NCBI GenBank assembly: GCA_022821085.1 | Contig: JAJEEG010000006.1 | Location: 1,509,330 to 1,573,329, forward strand | Direction of reading: 5' to 3' | Length of the DNA: 64,000 nucleotides | Source: Candidatus Latescibacterota bacterium | Lineage (GTDB): Bacteria; JAAXHH01 | Part shown: positions 45,720 to 54,357 of the stretch, piece by piece | Position numbering within the stretch: position 1 is the stretch's first letter | Layout of the letters: each line of letters starts with the position of its first letter | Position numbers and translations under genes: made by a program | The notes under the pieces: generated by a model | Database searches by the model: none | What the model was told of the DNA's origin: nothing | Seen by the model: only the letters and a program-made list of their open reading frames with translations

Positions 45720-46526
45720 ATGGCCAACAAAACCCGTCTTAACGCCGTAAGTTACCTGAACACCAGGCCCTTGACCTACGGCCTGGAACACGGCGGCCCG
45801 GATCACGGATTCGAAATACGCTACGATATCCCCTCGGTGTGCGCCAGGCAGGTGAGAACGGGCTTTGCCTCGGCGGGCGTCATCCCGTCGATCGAGTACG
45901 CGCGCGATGGGGCCGGCTACGCCATCGTTCCCGAGGTCGCCATCGCTTCCGACGGTCCGGTCGGCAGCATCCTCCTGTTCCACGGGGTGCCGGTACATCG
46001 GATCCGTAGCGTGGCGATGGACGCGAGTTCCCGAACCTCGGTCGCCCTGGCGCGGATCGTCCTGCAGGAGCAATACGGAATTGAAATCGACGCCTTCGAC
46101 CATCCGCCGGACGTTTCCGCCATGCTGGAAGGGGCTGACGCGGCCCTGGTCATCGGCGACCCGGCCCTTGAAAGCACCAGCCGGGCCGAACCCCGCATTG
46201 ACCTGGGGCAGGCTTGGCGGGAACTGACCGGATTGCCTTTCGTGTACGCCTTCTGGGCGGGAAAGGACGGGAGTCTCACACGCAGTGAGGTTGAACGGCT
46301 GATCGAATCGAAGGAGCAGGGCGTCATCGCCCTGGACGAGATCGCCGAATTACATGCCGGGAACCGTTCCCGGCCCACGTCTTTTTACGCGTCGTACCTG
46401 AAGGACAACCTGACCTACGACCTGGGTGACCGCGAGCGAAGCGGACTCATGGCGTTTTACGGCCTGGCCCATGCCCGCGGCCTGATCCCGGCCGTACCGG
46501 AACTGCGGTTCTATCCGCGTCATTGA
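45720..46526 (+). CDS. mqnA: Chorismate dehydratase
   Basis: 268-aa MqnA/MqnD-family protein of periplasmic-binding-protein II fold. It converts chorismate to 3-[(1-carboxyvinyl)oxy]benzoate, the first step of the futalosine pathway. The start LNAVSYLNTRPLTYGLEHG matches the family N-terminus, and CARQVRTGFASAGVIPSIEYAR and LVIGDPALE are also conserved. A substrate-binding loop is expected around the Asn12-Thr13 region. MqnA is normally told from MqnD by length and by the N-terminal pattern; both point to MqnA. It is followed directly by a DUF362 gene. Confidence 0.93.
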   Translation: MANKTRLNAVSYLNTRPLTYGLEHGGPDHGFEIRYDIPSVCARQVRTGFASAGVIPSIEYARDGAGYAIVPEVAIASDGPVGSILLFHGVPVHRIRSVAMDASSRTSVALARIVLQEQYGIEIDAFDHPPDVSAMLEGADAALVIGDPALESTSRAEPRIDLGQAWRELTGLPFVYAFWAGKDGSLTRSEVERLIESKEQGVIALDEIAELHAGNRSRPTSFYASYLKDNLTYDLGDRERSGLMAFYGLAHARGLIPAVPELRFYPRH

Positions 46527-46537
46527 AGGAGAAGACC

Positions 46538-47497
46538 ATGGCATCGACAACGACGGTCGGAATCGGTACGGGAAGCAACCGGCGGGAGAACGTGCGCCTG
46601 GCGGTGGAACGCTCCGCCCCGCATTTGGCCTCCCTCATGCGGGAAGAGGTCATGCTCAAGCCCAATTTCCTCTCCGGCACGAACCCGGTGGTATGCACCC
46701 ATCCGGACGCGGTCCGCGGCGTGCTGGACGTGATCATGACCCTGCCCGAAAGACCCCGGCGGGTCCTGATCGCCGAGGGCGGGAACGAGACCGTACCCGG
46801 GGAGTGCTTCCGTCACATGGGGTACGCCGACATCCCGGACGAATACGACATACCCATCGAGCTGGTGGACCTGAACCAGGAGACACGGTGGCGCAACACC
46901 CGGGTGTACATGGTCGACGGCACATGGACCACGGTAAGGATGCCGCGTACCGTGCTGGACTGTCCCTGCGTCATCTCGGTCGCCGTGGCCAAGACGCACG
47001 ACGGCGCCATGGTTACCCTGGCGCTGAAGAACCTCATCATGGGCACGATCCTGAAGAAGGACCGCATCAAGGTGCACGGCTACACGACCCACCACGACCG
47101 GCGCCACCCCCAGGAGGCGCGGGCCCTCAGCAGGAACCTGATCCGTCTTGCCCGCCACCTCTACCCGCACTACAGCGTGGTGGACGGCACGGTGGGCATC
47201 CAGGGCAACGGACCGGGCGGTACCGACACGGTGCCTCTCGGGCTGGCGGCGGCCGGTGAGGACACCATCGCCGTGGACGCCGTCATCTCGAAGGCCATGG
47301 GATTCGAGCCGCTGGAAGTGGGCACGGTCTTCTACGGGGATGCCGTCGGGCTGGGCGTGGGCGACCTGGCGCGCATCCGCGTCGCCGGCGGCCGGCTGGA
47401 TGAGCTCGCCCTGTCCTTCAAGGGCCACGAATCCATCGACTTGCAGCGCCAGTGGGCCATCGAAGGGGCGTGGGAGACGGCGGCGGTCGGGGGATGA
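46538..47497 (+). CDS. DUF362 domain protein without ferredoxin cysteines
   Basis: 319 aa. DUF362 core features are LKPNFLSGTNPVVCTHPDAVRGVLD, VLIAEGGNE, ISVAVAKTHDGAMVTLALKNLIMGT and VVDGTVGIQGNGPGG. Many DUF362 proteins end in a 4Fe-4S ferredoxin domain; none of the cysteine pattern is present here. The start at ATG 46538 follows GAAGGAG. Its role is unknown; placement after mqnA, 11 bp away, suggests a transcriptional link with menaquinone genes. Its TGA stop lies in the first of three 17-bp repeats. Confidence 0.88.
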   Translation: MASTTTVGIGTGSNRRENVRLAVERSAPHLASLMREEVMLKPNFLSGTNPVVCTHPDAVRGVLDVIMTLPERPRRVLIAEGGNETVPGECFRHMGYADIPDEYDIPIELVDLNQETRWRNTRVYMVDGTWTTVRMPRTVLDCPCVISVAVAKTHDGAMVTLALKNLIMGTILKKDRIKVHGYTTHHDRRHPQEARALSRNLIRLARHLYPHYSVVDGTVGIQGNGPGGTDTVPLGLAAAGEDTIAVDAVISKAMGFEPLEVGTVFYGDAVGLGVGDLARIRVAGGRLDELALSFKGHESIDLQRQWAIEGAWETAAVGG

Positions 47498-47571: not shown

Positions 47572-48774
47572 TCAGTGCACAGGAAGCGCGTCCACGACGC
47601 GAAGCACCTCTTCTTCCGTGTTGTAGAAATGCGGGGATATGCGGATACCGCCTCCGCGGCGCGCGCCGATGATCTGGTGGCTCCGCAGTGTCCGGTGCAG
47701 GATTTCGGTCTCGTGTACCGGACTGTCGAACGTCACGATGCCCGACCACTCGGATTCGCCCCGGGGGCTCAGAACCCGGTAACCCGCGTCGCGCAGCCCG
47801 TCGACCAGCCGGTCGGTGAGCAGGCGCAGCCTCTCCCGCACCACCTCGATACCCACCTCCAGCAGCAAATCCAGGGAAGCGCCCAGCGCGTATATACCCA
47901 GTGTATTGTGGGAACCGCACTCGAATCGCCGCGCCGTCGGCGCCGGCGTCGGATCGTAGGCATCGTAGTTGCCGGCGTCGGCCACCGAATTCCAGCCCAC
48001 TTCGTAGAGCCTCAGCCGTTCCGTCAGGTGCGGCGCGCAATAGAAGATACCGATCCCTTCCGGACTGAGTAGCCATTTGTGGCCGTCGGCCGTGAGCAGG
48101 TCGATGGACATTTCCGCCACGTCCACCGGCGTCTGCCCGAGCGACTGTATGGCGTCGACGACGAAACAGATGTCCTTCTCACGGCACAGCGCGCCGATCG
48201 CCGCAAGGTCGTTGCGGAAACCGTTCCCGAACTCGACGTGGCTGATGGAGACGGCGCGCGTCCGCGCATCGATCCGCTCCGCGATCGAATCCACGGTGAG
48301 CCGGCCGTCCACGGACTCGACCATCCGTGTTTCCACGCCGTGTCGCGCGAGATTTAGCCAGGGATATACGTTGGAGGGAAATTCCAGGTCGTTCAGGACC
48401 ACGTTGTCGCCGGAACGCCAGTCGATGCCGTTGGCGGCGAAACACAGGCCTTCGGTCGTATTCTTGACGAAGGCGATCTGCTCGGGTGTGGCGTTGATCA
48501 GGCGGGCAGACCGCGACCGGGCCGTCTCGATGGCGGCTTCCCAGTCGCGATAGTTGGAGGCGGCGTGTTCGCTATAGTCCTCCACGTAGGCGCGCACGGC
48601 CTCGCGGGCGCGCATGGGCAACGTGCCGACCGCCGCATGGTTCAGATAGGTGCAGTGATGGACGACAGGAAATTCCTGGCGGATGCGGTCCAGGTTCAAT
48701 TCAGGCCGGTCCGGTTCGACGGGACGGAGTTCGGTGTTCGACAAGGTAGAGACTGGTGCCGGAACGTGCGGCAC
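47572..48774 (-). CDS. Class V aminotransferase (cysteine desulfurase/epimerase-like)
   Basis: 400-aa fold-type I PLP enzyme. NHAAVGTLPMRAREAV starts the conserved core; the PLP region is VDAIQSLGQTPVDV and the Schiff-base lysine in LTADGHKWLLSPEGIGIFY. It resembles isopenicillin-N-epimerase-like and SufS-related proteins, so cysteine desulfurase activity cannot be excluded, though no partner Suf gene is near. The GTG at 48774 has a poor ribosome site and the first about 25 residues are low in information, so a start near 48700 is possible. Confidence 0.85.
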   Translation of the reverse strand: MPHVPAPVSTLSNTELRPVEPDRPELNLDRIRQEFPVVHHCTYLNHAAVGTLPMRAREAVRAYVEDYSEHAASNYRDWEAAIETARSRSARLINATPEQIAFVKNTTEGLCFAANGIDWRSGDNVVLNDLEFPSNVYPWLNLARHGVETRMVESVDGRLTVDSIAERIDARTRAVSISHVEFGNGFRNDLAAIGALCREKDICFVVDAIQSLGQTPVDVAEMSIDLLTADGHKWLLSPEGIGIFYCAPHLTERLRLYEVGWNSVADAGNYDAYDPTPAPTARRFECGSHNTLGIYALGASLDLLLEVGIEVVRERLRLLTDRLVDGLRDAGYRVLSPRGESEWSGIVTFDSPVHETEILHRTLRSHQIIGARRGGGIRISPHFYNTEEEVLRVVDALPVH

Positions 48775-48799: not shown

Positions 48800-49132
48800 T
48801 CAGAAACTCGCCGCGGCGTCCTCCGCCGAGTCGAAGATGTTGAAAACGGAATCCAGGCGGGTAACGACGACCAGCACGTTGTGCGTGCGTTCGCTCAGGT
48901 TGGCCAATTTCAGGTCGCCTCCGGCTTCTCTGAGGGTCTTGGCACTGCCCACGAGCGCACCGACGCCCGAACTGCTGATGAGGTTCAACCTGCCGAGGTC
49001 GACGACGGCGCCGGTCGTGCCCTCGGCCTTCAACGCCCTCACGCGGTCATGGAATGCGGACACTTCGGGATCGCCCAGAAAGCTGCCGACCAATTCGATA
49101 ACCGGTATACCGTTAATCCTGCTTTCGTTCAT
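48800..49132 (-). CDS. STAS-domain anti-sigma factor antagonist
   Basis: 110-aa STAS domain protein. The regulated serine is expected in LISSSGVGALVGSAK near residue 55-58, the standard phosphorylation site that a cognate anti-sigma kinase would modify. GTTGAVVDLGRLN and LKLANLSERTHNVLVVVTRLDSVFNIFD complete the fold. It would bind and release an anti-sigma factor when dephosphorylated. No anti-sigma factor or sigma gene is close by, so partners are elsewhere. A modest promoter candidate is at 49189-49217. Confidence 0.9.
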   Translation of the reverse strand: MNESRINGIPVIELVGSFLGDPEVSAFHDRVRALKAEGTTGAVVDLGRLNLISSSGVGALVGSAKTLREAGGDLKLANLSERTHNVLVVVTRLDSVFNIFDSAEDAAASF

Positions 49133-49320: not shown

Positions 49321-51015
49321 TCACGGATTCGACGTGAAAACGGCGGCCCCGGCTTCTATGGCGTTGTAGCCCGGGCAGTGCCCGTCCTCGATGTAGGGAC
49401 AGGGACTTCGGGCGATGATCACGCGGACGCCCGACTGGCGCAAGCCCCGCCCGATCACGTCGCGCGCCCGGGCCTCGTCCCAGGGATCGATGGTCTCGTT
49501 CAGCGAGACCGGGCAGGCTTCCACGATGCCGTCGATGCTGAGCGGCAGTGTCTCTCGGCCCGGTTCGGATCCGCCCAGGTTGGGCGTGCCCTGGAACCCG
49601 GACAGGGCCGTCGTGGCGTTGTCCAGGATGAGGATGAGCAGATCAGACCCCTGGTGGGCCACGTTGAAGAGTGCGTTGGCGCTCAGGTGAAAGAAGTCGG
49701 AATCCCCTACGACGGCGATCACCGGGTCGGTCACACCGGCCAGGACGAGTCCCGACGCGATGCCGATGCTCGACCCCATGGAGTACTTCACGTCGAGCAT
49801 TTCGAAGGGCGGGGTAGCGATCTTGATCGCGCAACCGGGGTCCACCACGTACACCGGCGACTGGCCGAATCGCCCGCTCAATTCGCGCAGGATCTCGAAC
49901 ACGGGCGTATAGGGACAGTTTTCCGGCAGGCCCGCCTCACTGGGCAGGTCCTTGTGTTCCGCTTGCGGCGGGAAGTCGCGGTCCGGCTTGAATCCGGGGA
50001 CGAATCCGCCCAGGGCCTCCGCGATCTGCCCGCGGAACAACTCGCCTTCCCGCGACACGGACCCGTCGTGCTTGCCGCTGATCGGCGTCGAAATCTTCGC
50101 GTCATAGCAAACCGACTTGATCAGTGTTTCGAGAAAGGGTTCGTTCTCCTCCAGGACCAGGGCCTTCTCGGTGTTGCGGAGAAAGCGGGTGATCTGACCG
50201 GTAGGCAGCGGCCACAGAGTGGACAGCTTGAGGATGGACAGGCCGGAGGTATCCACCCCTCGAAGCACGTCCATCAGCTTGGTGTGGATCACGCCCGCGG
50301 CGATAATGCCGGTCTTCCCCGTGCCGGTGACCTGGTTGAAGCCTGCGGATTCGAACCGCTCGGCGACCCTGTCAAGGCGTTCGTGCAGCCGACGATGCAG
50401 CTGGACGGCGTTTCCGGGCACCGATACCCACCGCATGGGATGCCGTTCGAAGGCATGGGGCCGCACGCGGGCCGCACGGGGGATTTCTGGGGGCTCCACT
50501 TCTTCTTCCAGCGCGCCGTACGTCTTCGTGATGCGCACGATGACGGGCAGCTGCGTCTCGCGGGACAGCCGGAAGGCCTCCCGCGTCATCGTGATCCCTT
50601 CGGAGGGCGTCGCCGGTTCCAGCATGGGCAATTCGCTGCCCCAGGCGATCGGGCGGGTGTCCTGGTCGTTCTGGGTGGCCCAGGCGCCCGGATCGTCTCC
50701 AAGCAGGATGACGAGCCCGGCGCCCGCGTCCGTCAGGTTGGCCACCATGACGGTATCCAGGGCGACGTTGAACCCGACGCCCTTGCAGCCCATCAGGGCC
50801 GGGACGCCGCCGATGGAAGCGCCCACCGCCGTTTCGAAGGCGACCTTCTCGTTGGTGGACCATTCCACATACAGTCCGTGACTCTCCGAAAAGCCGCGCA
50901 GAAACTCGATGGTGCTGCTGCTCGGCGAACCAGGATAGCTCGTCGCCACCGCGACGCCCGACTGCAACGCGCCGTAGGCGATGGCCTGGTCACCGGTGAT
51001 ACGCATCCCGGCCAT
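49321..51015 (-). CDS. Indolepyruvate:ferredoxin oxidoreductase alpha subunit-like, truncated
   Basis: 564-aa thiamine-diphosphate-dependent 2-oxoacid oxidoreductase of the IorA type. The N-terminal pyrimidine domain has SYPGSPSSSTIEFLRGF and WSTNEKVAFETAVGASIGG; the C-terminal ThDP-binding domain has YSMGSSIGIASGLVLAG and the metal motif GDSDFFHLSANALFNVAHQGSD...LDNATTALSG. Full-length IorA ends in a ferredoxin domain with two 4Fe-4S clusters; here the protein stops after RSPCPYIEDGHCPGYN, with only two cysteines. No IorB gene is adjacent. It likely oxidises an aryl- or other 2-oxoacid to acyl-CoA only if partners are supplied elsewhere. Confidence 0.87.
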   Translation of the reverse strand: MAGMRITGDQAIAYGALQSGVAVATSYPGSPSSSTIEFLRGFSESHGLYVEWSTNEKVAFETAVGASIGGVPALMGCKGVGFNVALDTVMVANLTDAGAGLVILLGDDPGAWATQNDQDTRPIAWGSELPMLEPATPSEGITMTREAFRLSRETQLPVIVRITKTYGALEEEVEPPEIPRAARVRPHAFERHPMRWVSVPGNAVQLHRRLHERLDRVAERFESAGFNQVTGTGKTGIIAAGVIHTKLMDVLRGVDTSGLSILKLSTLWPLPTGQITRFLRNTEKALVLEENEPFLETLIKSVCYDAKISTPISGKHDGSVSREGELFRGQIAEALGGFVPGFKPDRDFPPQAEHKDLPSEAGLPENCPYTPVFEILRELSGRFGQSPVYVVDPGCAIKIATPPFEMLDVKYSMGSSIGIASGLVLAGVTDPVIAVVGDSDFFHLSANALFNVAHQGSDLLILILDNATTALSGFQGTPNLGGSEPGRETLPLSIDGIVEACPVSLNETIDPWDEARARDVIGRGLRQSGVRVIIARSPCPYIEDGHCPGYNAIEAGAAVFTSNP

Positions 51016-51059: not shown

Positions 51060-51089
51060 AATATAGGTTTTGCGGCCCATGCCGGTCAA
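51060..51089 (-). promoter_or_regulatory. Promoter for the IorA-like gene
   Basis: TTGACC (51084-51089), preceded by TCGC, 18-bp spacer, TATATT (51060-51065) on the minus strand; a leader of about 40 nt. Confidence 0.55.
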
Positions 51090-51124: not shown

Positions 51125-51153
51125 TTGCGACCGTTCCGCCGTCCGGCTATATT
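51125..51153 (+). promoter_or_regulatory. Promoter for the class V aminotransferase at 51332
   Basis: TTGCGA (51125-51130), preceded by CCGC, 17-bp spacer, TATATT (51148-51153). Leader of about 170 nt containing the repeats. Confidence 0.5.
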
Positions 51154-51188: not shown

Positions 51189-51248
51189 GCATGCACCGAA
51201 AGCGCATGCACCGGAAGCGAATGCACAGGAATCGCGCGCACCGACACC
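51189..51248. repeat. 15-bp repeat x4 in the aminotransferase leader
   Basis: GCATGCACCGAAAGC-type units at 51189, 51204, 51219 and 51234. They contain ATG codons, so an upstream short reading frame coding Met-His-Arg-Lys-Arg repeats is open. Confidence 0.75.
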
Positions 51249-51331
51249 GCACGATGCGGTATGTTCGTGCCGGTCCTTCGGTTCGACGTTTTTCGCTCCT
51301 GAAGATCCACGCGGGCGACGGAGAAATGGAG

Positions 51332-52606
51332 ATGGCAAAACAGCGTCAGGCATCCGGACGGAAAAAGGCGGACGACGGCCGGTCCAGACGGTCCGTCAGC
51401 ATGGCGGACACCATCGAGGAACTGGACGGGATCCTGGCCAACGCCGGACCGGCCGAAGCGGACAACGAGGACTACTGGCGGGCGGTGAGAGCCCAGTTTC
51501 CCTATAACGGCTCCATACACTACACCAACAACGGGACGATCGGCATTCTGCCCCACATGGTCCTGCAGGCCCAGATCACGGTCCTGAAGGAGACGGAGAT
51601 CCAGGACGGGGATACCGGGGGCGTCGACTATCCGGCCCCCCACGAAGCCCACGAGAAGCTGGCCGCGCTGATCAACGCGGACCCTTCCGAGGTCGCCATC
51701 ACGCGGAATTCGACCGAGAGCATGAACATCATCGCCCTCGGCCTCGACCTGAATCCGGAAGACGAGATCCTGACGACGACCCACGAGCACTACGGAGGCT
51801 GGTCCTGCTGGCAGCACCGGCACGCACAGTTCGGTAACCCGATCCGTAAGCTCGACCTGTACGATCCGCCCGAAGACGAGGACGAGATCGTCCGGCTGTT
51901 CGAGGAAGCCATCCGGCCGGAAACCCGCGTGCTCAGCTTCTGCCACGTCACCTGCACGACGGCCTGGCGCCTGCCCGTCAAAAAGATCTGCGCCATGGCC
52001 CGCGAGCGCGGGCTTATCACGGTCGTCGACGGGGCGCAGTCGGTGGGCATGATCGGGGTCGACGTGAAGGATCTCGGCGGCGACTTCTACGTGAGCAGCA
52101 CGCACAAGTGGCTGTTTACGCCCAAGGGCACGGGCCTGCTGTACGTGGATGACGCCGCACAGGACAAGATCGGACTGGGATACTACACGGGCGGCGGCCG
52201 GCCGACGGCGAGGCGGTTCGAGAACAACGCGTCCCAGAGTCACGCGCCGCTGGTGGGGTTCGCCGTGGCCGTGGATTTCCACAACGCCATCGGCACCTGC
52301 CTGGTCGAGGACCGCGGCGCGGCCATGGCGAAATGGCTCAAGACCCGCCTTTCCGACATACCCGGTGTCCGGGTCTGGACGCCGATGAACCGCGCGCTGT
52401 CCGCGTCCATGGTATCCTTTTCCATCGCCGGCATGACTTCCTCCGACGTAGGCACGCCGCTTCGGGAAAGATACCGGGTCCACAGCCGAGGACTGTACGA
52501 AGGGGGCTACCACGGCGCACGCATTTCCTGCGCCATGCATAACAGCTACGAAGAAATGGAGCGAGTCGCCGGCGCCGTCGAAGAAATCGCGGATAACCGG
52601 TGCTAG
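51332..52606 (+). CDS. Class V aminotransferase-family PLP enzyme
   Basis: 424-aa fold-type I PLP enzyme. Core motifs are IHYTNNGTIGILPHMVLQAQ, AITRNSTESMNIIALGL, VVDGAQSVGMIGVDV and the PLP lysine in VSSTHKWLFTPKGTGLLYV. It is distinct from the gene at 47572 though of the same superfamily. The ATG at 51332 follows GGAG at 8 nt; an ATG at 51326 is too close to it. The first 40 residues are basic and of low information. It lies divergent from the IorA-like gene. Exact reaction unknown; sulfur transfer or amino-acid degradation are both open. Confidence 0.86.
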   Translation: MAKQRQASGRKKADDGRSRRSVSMADTIEELDGILANAGPAEADNEDYWRAVRAQFPYNGSIHYTNNGTIGILPHMVLQAQITVLKETEIQDGDTGGVDYPAPHEAHEKLAALINADPSEVAITRNSTESMNIIALGLDLNPEDEILTTTHEHYGGWSCWQHRHAQFGNPIRKLDLYDPPEDEDEIVRLFEEAIRPETRVLSFCHVTCTTAWRLPVKKICAMARERGLITVVDGAQSVGMIGVDVKDLGGDFYVSSTHKWLFTPKGTGLLYVDDAAQDKIGLGYYTGGGRPTARRFENNASQSHAPLVGFAVAVDFHNAIGTCLVEDRGAAMAKWLKTRLSDIPGVRVWTPMNRALSASMVSFSIAGMTSSDVGTPLRERYRVHSRGLYEGGYHGARISCAMHNSYEEMERVAGAVEEIADNRC

Positions 52607-52674: not shown

Positions 52675-54357
52675 ATGTCCGATACTGCACTTACCATAAA
52701 GGCCCTGAAGGAACAGTTGGGTGATGCGTTTGCTGAGAACGTCGTCCTGCGCATCAAGCGCAACGGCGCGTACGTGGAATTCACGGGGTCGGAAGCGGCC
52801 CGCCGGGCCGACGCGCTCGCCGGACTGCTCGCCTCCCTCGGCCTGCAGCACGGCGACCGGGTCGCGCTGCTGGCGGCCAACCAGCCCGAATGGGGCATCG
52901 CCTACCTGGCGATCGTGGGGCACGGGATGACGGCCGTACCCATCGATCGGCTGTTGAAACCCGGTGAATACCAGCGGATTCTGGAGGATTCCGGTGCAAG
53001 GGCCATCGTGGTGTCGGACGCCTTCCGGGACGACTTCCATTCCATCGCCGGTTCCCTGCCCGAACTCAAGCACGTGCTGAGCCTGGAAGAGGTGATGGCC
53101 AGCGAGAGCGATGCCGCAGCGCCGGACAGCCAGGTCAGCCCGGACGACCTCGCCGTCCTGATCTACACCTCGGGCACGACCGGCCGGCCCAAGGGCGTGA
53201 TGCTGTCCCACCGCAACATCATGTCCAACGTGGTGGCCGCCAGCCAGGTCATATCCATCACCTCCGACGACAGTTTCGTATCCGTGCTCCCCCTGCACCA
53301 TACCTTCGAGTGCACCGCCGGGTTCCTCGCGCCGGTCTACAACGGCGCCATGGTGTCCTACGTGGGCAGCCTCAACTCAAGAGACATCGTCGAGACCATG
53401 AAGGACTCCAGGGCGACGATCATGCTGGCGGTCCCGCTGCTGTACGAGAAGATGTACCAGGGGATCATGCGCAAGGTCGGCTCCCAGCCCGCGGTCACGC
53501 GGACCGTGTTCAACCTCCTGATGGGCGTGGTGAAACTGGGCGAGAAGTTCAACAAGCGCATGGGCACGGCCCTGTTCCGGAGCCTGCGCGACAAGGGCGG
53601 ACTGGGGACCATCCGGTTCTTCGTGTCCGGCGCCGCCGCCCTGCCGCCCGAAGTGGCCGAGGGATTCGATCGGCTGGGTCTGCGCATCCTGCAGGGTTAC
53701 GGGCTCACGGAAACCTCTCCGGTCGTGTCCGTGCACCGCGTGGAGCAACCTCCGAAACCCGATTCCGTCGGACCGCCCATCAACGGCGTGGACGTGGAAG
53801 TCGTGAACCCGGACGACACGGGCGTGGGTGAGATCGTCGTGCGGGGGGACAACGTGATGCTGGGCTATTACAACAATCCCGAGGCCACGGCCGAGGTGCT
53901 CAAGGACGGCGCGCTGTATTCGGGCGATTCGGGTTGGATAGACGACGACGGGCATATCCACATCGCGGGCCGGCTCAAGAACGTGATCGTCACCCGGGCC
54001 GGCAAGAACATCTATCCGGAGGAAATCGAGGGTGAACTCGTCCTCAGTCCCTACATCGCGGAGGCGCTCGTCTTCGGCGCCGAGAACGCGGAGTCGGGAG
54101 AGGAATACGTACGTGCGGTCGTGGTCCCCGATTTCGAAGTCCTGGAAGAGGAGGGTACGCCGGACGACGACGAGACCCTGACCGCGCTCATGAACCACGA
54201 AGTGCGGGAGCGTTGCAGGAACCTCGCGGACTACAAGCGCGTCAGAGAAGTGGAGCTGCGCCGGGAAGAGTTCTCGAAGACTTCCACCCGCAAGATCAAG
54301 CGTTTTCTCTTCAAGACCGGACAGGAAAGCCCCGCGGAGGACACCGCCGGCCAGTGA
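52675..54357 (+). CDS. Long-chain acyl-CoA synthetase / AMP-dependent ligase
   Basis: 560-aa ANL-superfamily enzyme that activates a carboxylate as an acyl-adenylate and then a CoA thioester. The P-loop is YTSGTTGRPKGVMLSH near residues 163-178. LQGYGLTETSPVVS is the A5 motif, SGDSGWIDDDGHIHIAGRLKNVIVTRAGKNIYPEEIE contains the hinge aspartate and A8 region, and the catalytic lysine lies in the C-terminal TRKIKRFL. Chain length specificity cannot be read. Its start is 69 bp after the aminotransferase stop, so a shared transcript is possible. Confidence 0.93.
   Translation: MSDTALTIKALKEQLGDAFAENVVLRIKRNGAYVEFTGSEAARRADALAGLLASLGLQHGDRVALLAANQPEWGIAYLAIVGHGMTAVPIDRLLKPGEYQRILEDSGARAIVVSDAFRDDFHSIAGSLPELKHVLSLEEVMASESDAAAPDSQVSPDDLAVLIYTSGTTGRPKGVMLSHRNIMSNVVAASQVISITSDDSFVSVLPLHHTFECTAGFLAPVYNGAMVSYVGSLNSRDIVETMKDSRATIMLAVPLLYEKMYQGIMRKVGSQPAVTRTVFNLLMGVVKLGEKFNKRMGTALFRSLRDKGGLGTIRFFVSGAAALPPEVAEGFDRLGLRILQGYGLTETSPVVSVHRVEQPPKPDSVGPPINGVDVEVVNPDDTGVGEIVVRGDNVMLGYYNNPEATAEVLKDGALYSGDSGWIDDDGHIHIAGRLKNVIVTRAGKNIYPEEIEGELVLSPYIAEALVFGAENAESGEEYVRAVVVPDFEVLEEEGTPDDDETLTALMNHEVRERCRNLADYKRVREVELRREEFSKTSTRKIKRFLFKTGQESPAEDTAGQ

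Follow-up and report, generated by a model that had tools for sequence, protein, structure and literature searches.

What reaction is left to an enzyme that resembles the alpha subunit of indolepyruvate oxidoreductase (IorA) when its ferredoxin domain and its partner subunit IorB both appear to be missing? We addressed this question for a gene in a 64,000-nucleotide stretch of DNA from a Candidatus Latescibacterota bacterium (hereafter the window; G000:C1:1509330-1573329, genome size 3.75-Mb), for which the original prediction had proposed an orphan form with another electron acceptor or one acting as a decarboxylase.

An IorA-like gene and the search for its partner

The gene, hereafter referred to as IORL (stand-alone IorA-like ThDP enzyme), lies at 49321..51015 on the reverse strand and is an ATG-started ORF of 564 aa. 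Its only Pfam domains at E <= 0.001 are POR_N (residues 15-195) and TPP_enzyme_C (411-533), and the IOR_alpha profile TIGR03336 matches it over profile positions 6-535 of 595 (E = 8e-127) with 424 bits, which is less than the equivalog cut-off of 650.9. Since the match stops at position 535, the C-terminal ferredoxin part is absent from IORL, as had been predicted together with the two ThDP domains. We then used a 75-row alignment composed of the window copy, 66 of the 80 IorA-like loci among the matches listed and 8 loci from genome searches (the 14 excluded loci were 11 from Methanomicrobiales/Euryarchaeota and the three over-long frames L083, L102 and L114), and found one Cys past the PC motif in IORL versus 8-10 in the ferredoxin-bearing rows; a further 10-row alignment was picked for contrast and excluded from the counts. 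No ferredoxin motif was present in any of the three frames of the 191 bases 3' of IORL, and the protein stops in the same manner in 15/15 genomes, which excludes a domain masked by a sequencing or frameshift artefact.

IORL was found in 15 of the 16 genomes searched in its phylum (one copy is a contig-edge fragment), with 85-94% identity to the window copy across 11 other genomes of the genus. Of nine comparisons, eight gave a dN/dS ratio of 0.13-0.18 and one was saturated; the tail (residues 530-564; dN 0.09-0.17, dS 0.15-0.27, four comparisons) was less constrained than the whole gene. Given this distribution, the C-terminal end common to all carriers and the low dN/dS, chance is excluded and IORL is a real gene under purifying selection. 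The loss of a domain, a partner and a cluster ligand would also suit a decayed remnant heading for loss, but the same constraint and the retention in 15 genomes make such a remnant exceedingly improbable. Among the matches listed, the nearest named relatives of the gene came from MAGs, at 94% in two records with the title Gemmatimonadetes and at 85-92% in three with the title Candidatus Latescibacterota, and the group name Latescibacterota used here is the title on most records. Two records titled Gemmatimonadetes and one titled Zixiibacteriota (L045, L046 and L051) nevertheless match the window's own genus or family, and their titles are probably outdated or wrong. Sponge-associated Latescibacterota are reported in PMC12993501, whose main text contains 0 occurrences of oxidoreductase or indolepyruvate. 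Rfam gave 0 matches at the gathering threshold within the window.

The search for IorB (gamma subunit) used the profile TIGR03334 (IOR_beta; cut-off 205.8 bits). In the genome of the window it matched frames of 1205 aa (67 bits) and 737 aa (22 bits), neither score coming anywhere near the cut-off, and no free-standing iorB was recovered by this profile; nor does a beta-subunit gene adjoin IORL, as originally noted. The best matches in 14 genomes of the order scored 61-74 bits, always within a frame of 763-1224 aa, and there were 0 matches above the cut-off in 15 genomes searched together (a set that leaves out G005 and G009), the best match never being a free gene in the 14 genomes of the order. 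Scores in the genomes of other clade members (see below) were 43 bits in G047, 33 in G335 and 77 in G199, where the matching frame has 1199 aa. In five genomes that carry ordinary IorA, the match scored 168-234 bits and lay in a short frame on the IorA contig, close to IorA, though only 2/7 genomes of this contrast search exceeded the cut-off, so that the cut-off alone is a poor test for IorB. A motif search of the flanks of 24 orphan stretches found no convincing IorB, and the two matches obtained (L049 and L135) look like chance; in this set L045, L048, L050 and L051 duplicate L126, L130, L134 and L133, respectively, and several contigs are short.

Another OFOR might instead lend IORL its gamma subunit or IorB domain, with IORL acting in trans as an ordinary IOR alpha subunit. 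PF01558 does occur at four places in the genome, one of them in a fused IorAB-like protein of 1205 aa. However, all four domains sit in frames of 510-1205 aa and none stands alone, and a cluster ligand is missing from most clade rows but not from the ferredoxin-less IorAs that keep IorB. We therefore consider a borrowed subunit improbable.

An orphan clade with an altered cluster site

We further placed IORL among its homologs with a 64-row tree, obtained from the 75 rows by removing 14 near-copies and adding 3 rows. The orphan rows (n = 13) form one side of a branch with support of 100/99.9. This clade consists of the Latescibacterota group and at least six other lineages, represented by L029 (G047), L052 (titled Poribacteria), L053 (Deltaproteobacteria), L055 (Cytophagales), L164 (G335) and L165 (G199), and neither a ferredoxin domain nor an adjoining IorB was seen within it. 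The orphan form is thus broader than first proposed. Two circumstances that had been named as speaking against an unusual enzyme were also followed up: the ferredoxin domain is absent family-wide, but iorB-like sequence elsewhere occurs only inside larger frames. The clade is rare, with members in 3/368 genomes outside the phylum (E 1e-82 or better, a threshold that distant members may escape); the extent of the clade outside the phylum is a lower bound, sampling was uneven, and the search in the phylum of G047 covered one genome only. Its inner order is unsure, since the node above L052 has support of 86/59 and L055 and L164 were flagged as long branches; in a quick tree, L029 and L053 likewise drew a warning as long branches joining each other. 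In the literature on IorA without IorB, covered partly by titles and abstract openings, we found no description of such a clade. Elsewhere among the homologs, the 1151-aa IorA-like frame L031 (G050) has a C-terminal end that by eye resembles a pyridine-nucleotide oxidoreductase fusion.

The ferredoxin motif was absent in 11 of the 80 IorA-like loci among the matches listed. Loss of the domain is too weak to be the key change, because outside the clade there are three IorAs without the domain (L037, L044 and L093) that sit next to an IorB-like gene and retain the full set of four cluster Cys. With the OFORs of Sulfolobus tokodaii, which function without a ferredoxin domain of their own by using one cluster and an external ferredoxin (PMC5020499), these loci also show that the claim that known IorA needs both was too strong for the ferredoxin domain.

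We next examined the proximal [4Fe-4S] cluster in 79 rows, that is, the 75-row alignment plus L164, L165, L166 and the fragment L135. The first Cys of the CxxC motif is present in 60/60 rows outside the clade and in 4/19 inside. At this position IORL carries Pro364 (49924..49926, reverse strand, as for all residues given here), as do 15/19 clade rows in total, 13 of which belong to one lineage. The second Cys, Cys367 (49915..49917), is kept in 79/79 rows (19/19 clade, 60/60 others); its assignment comes from MAFFT and from comparing L052 (CDGCPYTP) with the window (PENCPYTP), although hmmsearch aligns Cys367 to either Cys of CxxC. Cys395 (DPGC; 49831..49833; 79/79 rows) and Cys539 (SPC; 49399..49401; 78/79 rows, the exception being L055) fall on the GC and PC motifs of StOFOR beta chains in the profile alignment, motifs that we take to be the other two proximal-cluster ligands. 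Four Cys are reportedly referred to in the title of Yan et al. 2014. According to PMC5020499, Cys12-Cys15 of the conserved StOFOR2 CxGC loop bind the proximal cluster. IORL thus has Cys at three of four ligand positions, whereas L052, L164 and L165 retain all four. A single loss of the first Cys inside the clade was neither supported nor rejected (p-AU 0.067).

An additional Cys, Cys547 (CPGY; 49375..49377), lies +8 from Cys539 in 13/13 Latescibacterota-group rows and, at the same spacing, in L053. It is a possible, putative replacement ligand. If a cluster were held by Cys367, Cys395, Cys539 and Cys547, IORL could still be an oxidoreductase that hands its electrons straight to a free ferredoxin or flavodoxin, a reading that we judge less likely than a non-oxidative reaction but its main and serious rival. 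The spread and spacing of Cys547 agree with it, as does the mode of action of StOFOR with its single cluster, and HpdF, described as having a cluster site of three conserved Cys, is part of an active oxidoreductase (PMC13285125). Candidate acceptors exist as well, as PF12838 has 16 matches in the own genome, including a 130-aa frame on C2 near Kor-like genes, and a 90-aa dicluster ferredoxin-like ORF (L136:801-1073) is the second gene 3' of IORL in G047, after a metallophosphoesterase. The oxidoreductase reading is weakened in that no IorB was found, that L029 has no Cys547 to make up for its lost first Cys and that L055 lost the last Cys. Moreover, the structural model (mean pLDDT 57 for residues 541-550) lends no support to Cys547 lying near the other three, and the tail carrying it is the less constrained part of the gene.

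The AlphaFold model itself, built on the 75-row alignment, had a mean pLDDT of 89.8 and a pTM of 0.90, with residues 548-564 under 50. VIA-align 2 matched it to 14 OFOR-family entries with Z scores of 29.3-34.9 (next best 25.1), and 517-523 residues superposed on seven PFOR entries with an rmsd of 3.0-3.4, so the OFOR-type fold of domains I, II and VI is present in the model. The ThDP/Mg2+ residues are retained (E56, GDS 437-439 and N466). Glu56 of the NEK motif (50848..50850) would be the ThDP-activating Glu: its counterpart in 1yd7 is the second Glu of the EDE motif, and the position is Glu in 60/60 outside rows and in 17/18 clade rows that cover it. The top Foldseek rows (AHAS and HACS) were not accepted as kin of IORL, with TM of 0.26-0.29 and rmsd over 20, and the missing CoA-labelling Lys125 of StOFOR was dropped as an argument, because the aligned Gly473 is Gly in 75/75 rows, ordinary IorAs included. 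Overall, IORL lies outside IorA by the tested features, yet within the OFORs by fold and descent.

Gene order and the class V PLP-dependent partner

On the far side of a divergent promoter-like region, the original prediction had correctly noted a class V PLP-dependent aminotransferase (51191..52606, forward strand; start uncertain, about 51191) and an AMP-binding acyl-CoA synthetase (52675..54357, forward strand), but neither is on the IORL strand. It missed the same-strand genes downstream, namely a single-domain STAS protein of 110 aa (48800..49132, reverse strand), 188 bases 3' of IORL, and a second class V PLP-dependent enzyme (47572..48774, reverse strand). This PLP enzyme lies on the IORL strand and 3' of IORL in 15/15 genomes (L046, L047 and L049 being taken as G008, G001 and G007 in this count), and the STAS gene stands between the two in 14/15, the exception being G014. 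Two promoter-like sites were detected between IORL and the divergent PLP gene versus 0.6 expected: TTGACC-18-TATATT on the reverse strand 5' of IORL (51060..51089), kept in 7 aligned genus loci but not in L050, and TTGCGA-17-TATATT on the forward strand (51125..51153), kept in the aligned genus loci, with only part of it present in L047. The stretches separating IORL, STAS and the PLP gene yielded nothing resembling a terminator. In this lineage IORL is probably co-transcribed with the class V PLP enzyme, although the 188-base gap makes a single IORL-STAS transcript uncertain.

The nearest solved kin of the PLP partner are cysteine desulfurases and a C-S lyase. Its translation has no Cys in the last 50 residues, and we take the C-terminal loop to be the expected place of the catalytic Cys of a type II cysteine desulfurase; the main HMMER alignment to CsdB spans residues 27-354 only, and the true start is probably 12-26 codons further in. 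The partner and IORL may also be linked in occurrence, since G015 has an orthologue of neither (the best PLP match there is 34% versus 61-66% in G012-G014). Against such a link, G015 is only 85% complete, and outside the phylum IORL was not seen with this neighbour: tblastn gave no PLP-gene homologue in L052, L053 or L136, none was seen in the ORF lists of L055, L164 and L165, and the neighbours of clade IORLs in general differ there.

Other genes accompany the unit. In G012 and G014, a mandelate-racemase/muconate-lactonizing-type gene (L133:7405-8529 and L135:3825-4895, 76% alike) lies between IORL and the PLP enzyme, which perhaps hints at the original pathway. In the window, an MqnA-type menaquinone gene (VitK2_biosynth) is directly followed by a DUF362 gene (45720-47494); this pair is convergent with the IORL-STAS-PLP unit and is kept beside it in genus loci with enough flank. 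The second gene 5' of the IorA-like gene of L052 encodes a flavodoxin-domain protein (L052:1656-2087).

L164 stands in another context. The NEK motif is not preserved in it, Pro standing in for Glu56, and about 27 bases separate its end from a glycolate-oxidase-like trio of GlcD-, GlcE- and GlcF-like genes (region L164:6273-12013). Glyoxylate carboligases have Val where the active-site Glu would stand (PMC3534367), and L164 is possibly an OFOR-derived glyoxylate carboligase, to which the GlcD-like neighbour would supply glyoxylate. A STAS plus HATPase protein (L164:3053-3937, G335) is encoded 5' of this IORL; a STAS gene near IORL in two contexts, the Latescibacterota group and G335, is perhaps chance.

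Proposed reaction and comparison with known systems

Considering the sequence evidence as a whole, we give about an even chance to IORL being an OFOR-derived, non-oxidative 2-oxoacid decarboxylase or carboligase that acts on the product of the PLP enzyme. It descends from the alpha subunit of an indolepyruvate oxidoreductase and is now a stand-alone ThDP enzyme: IorB (the gamma subunit) and the intramolecular ferredoxin domain are gone, as is one proximal [4Fe-4S] cysteine of four, while the ThDP/Mg2+ motifs and the OFOR-type fold are retained. The class V PLP enzyme would convert an amino acid to the 2-oxoacid that IORL uses; this substrate would be bound on ThDP and decarboxylated, and the product would be released without electron transfer, either as an aldehyde or after joining to an acceptor carbonyl.

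The non-oxidative reading draws on the ThDP motifs being kept while the clade lacks the ferredoxin domain, an adjacent IorB and, in most rows, the first Cys. It also draws on L164 being without the canonical ThDP Glu, as are glyoxylate carboligases, and on StOFOR1, in which, according to PMC5020499, the cluster is required for oxidative decarboxylation but not for the non-oxidative route to acetaldehyde. The original suggestion of a decarboxylase thereby gains indirect support from the cluster-Cys and IorB losses. The link to the PLP enzyme draws on the shared strand in all carriers and the joint absence from G015. Several observations count against a non-oxidative reaction: three of the four ligand positions remain and Cys547 could be the fourth, L052, L164 and L165 keep all four, HpdF works with three Cys, most Pro364 rows represent a single lineage, and a ferredoxin-like ORF and a flavodoxin-domain gene lie near the genes of G047 and L052, respectively. 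Archaeal PORs with both activities have also been described (PMC4058850 and PMC9405506), and in the latter the archaeal POR/PDC is reported to need CoA for its decarboxylase activity too, which sits poorly with a simple rule; loss of the gamma subunit could therefore hinder both reactions.

More broadly, and only tentatively, nature may here have turned an electron-transferring 2-oxoacid oxidoreductase into a decarboxylase or carboligase that consists of a single chain and possibly tolerates oxygen, as the ferredoxin domain, IorB and, in several lineages, a cluster ligand were lost; at least one member of the clade (L164) would perhaps be a glyoxylate carboligase on an OFOR scaffold. Annotation by best profile match would label such genes IorA, and their hosts would be assumed to oxidise arylpyruvates by way of ferredoxin. 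Should the non-oxidative reading be true, the clade would be a natural parallel to the StOFOR cysteine mutants, which showed that only the oxidative branch depends on the cluster, and would offer a compact OFOR-type decarboxylase or carboligase whose graded intermediates (four Cys, three Cys, no Glu) make the path testable.

Compared with IorA (TIGR03336), IORL has the same order of POR_N first and ThDP PP domain last and the same ThDP motifs, with 30-37% identity over the full length to the ordinary IorA rows of the 75-row alignment, but differs in lacking the ferredoxin domain and a detectable IorB, in Pro for the first CxxC Cys and in scoring under the equivalog cut-off. The ferredoxin-less IorAs (L037, L044 and L093) share the missing C-terminal domain, but unlike IORL they have an adjoining IorB-like gene and four cluster Cys. 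With the two-subunit OFOR of S. tokodaii (5b46 and 5b48), IORL has in common the OFOR fold, one proximal-cluster site and no intramolecular ferredoxin domain (PMC5020499), whereas domain III and the intact CxGC loop are found in the S. tokodaii enzyme only. Finally, benzoylformate decarboxylase, glyoxylate carboligase and acetohydroxyacid synthase are similar in chain length and in the chemistry proposed for IORL and rank high in Foldseek, but with TM of only 0.26-0.29 over the whole chain; unlike these enzymes, IORL aligns as an OFOR (Z 29-35), and its sequence kin are IorA.
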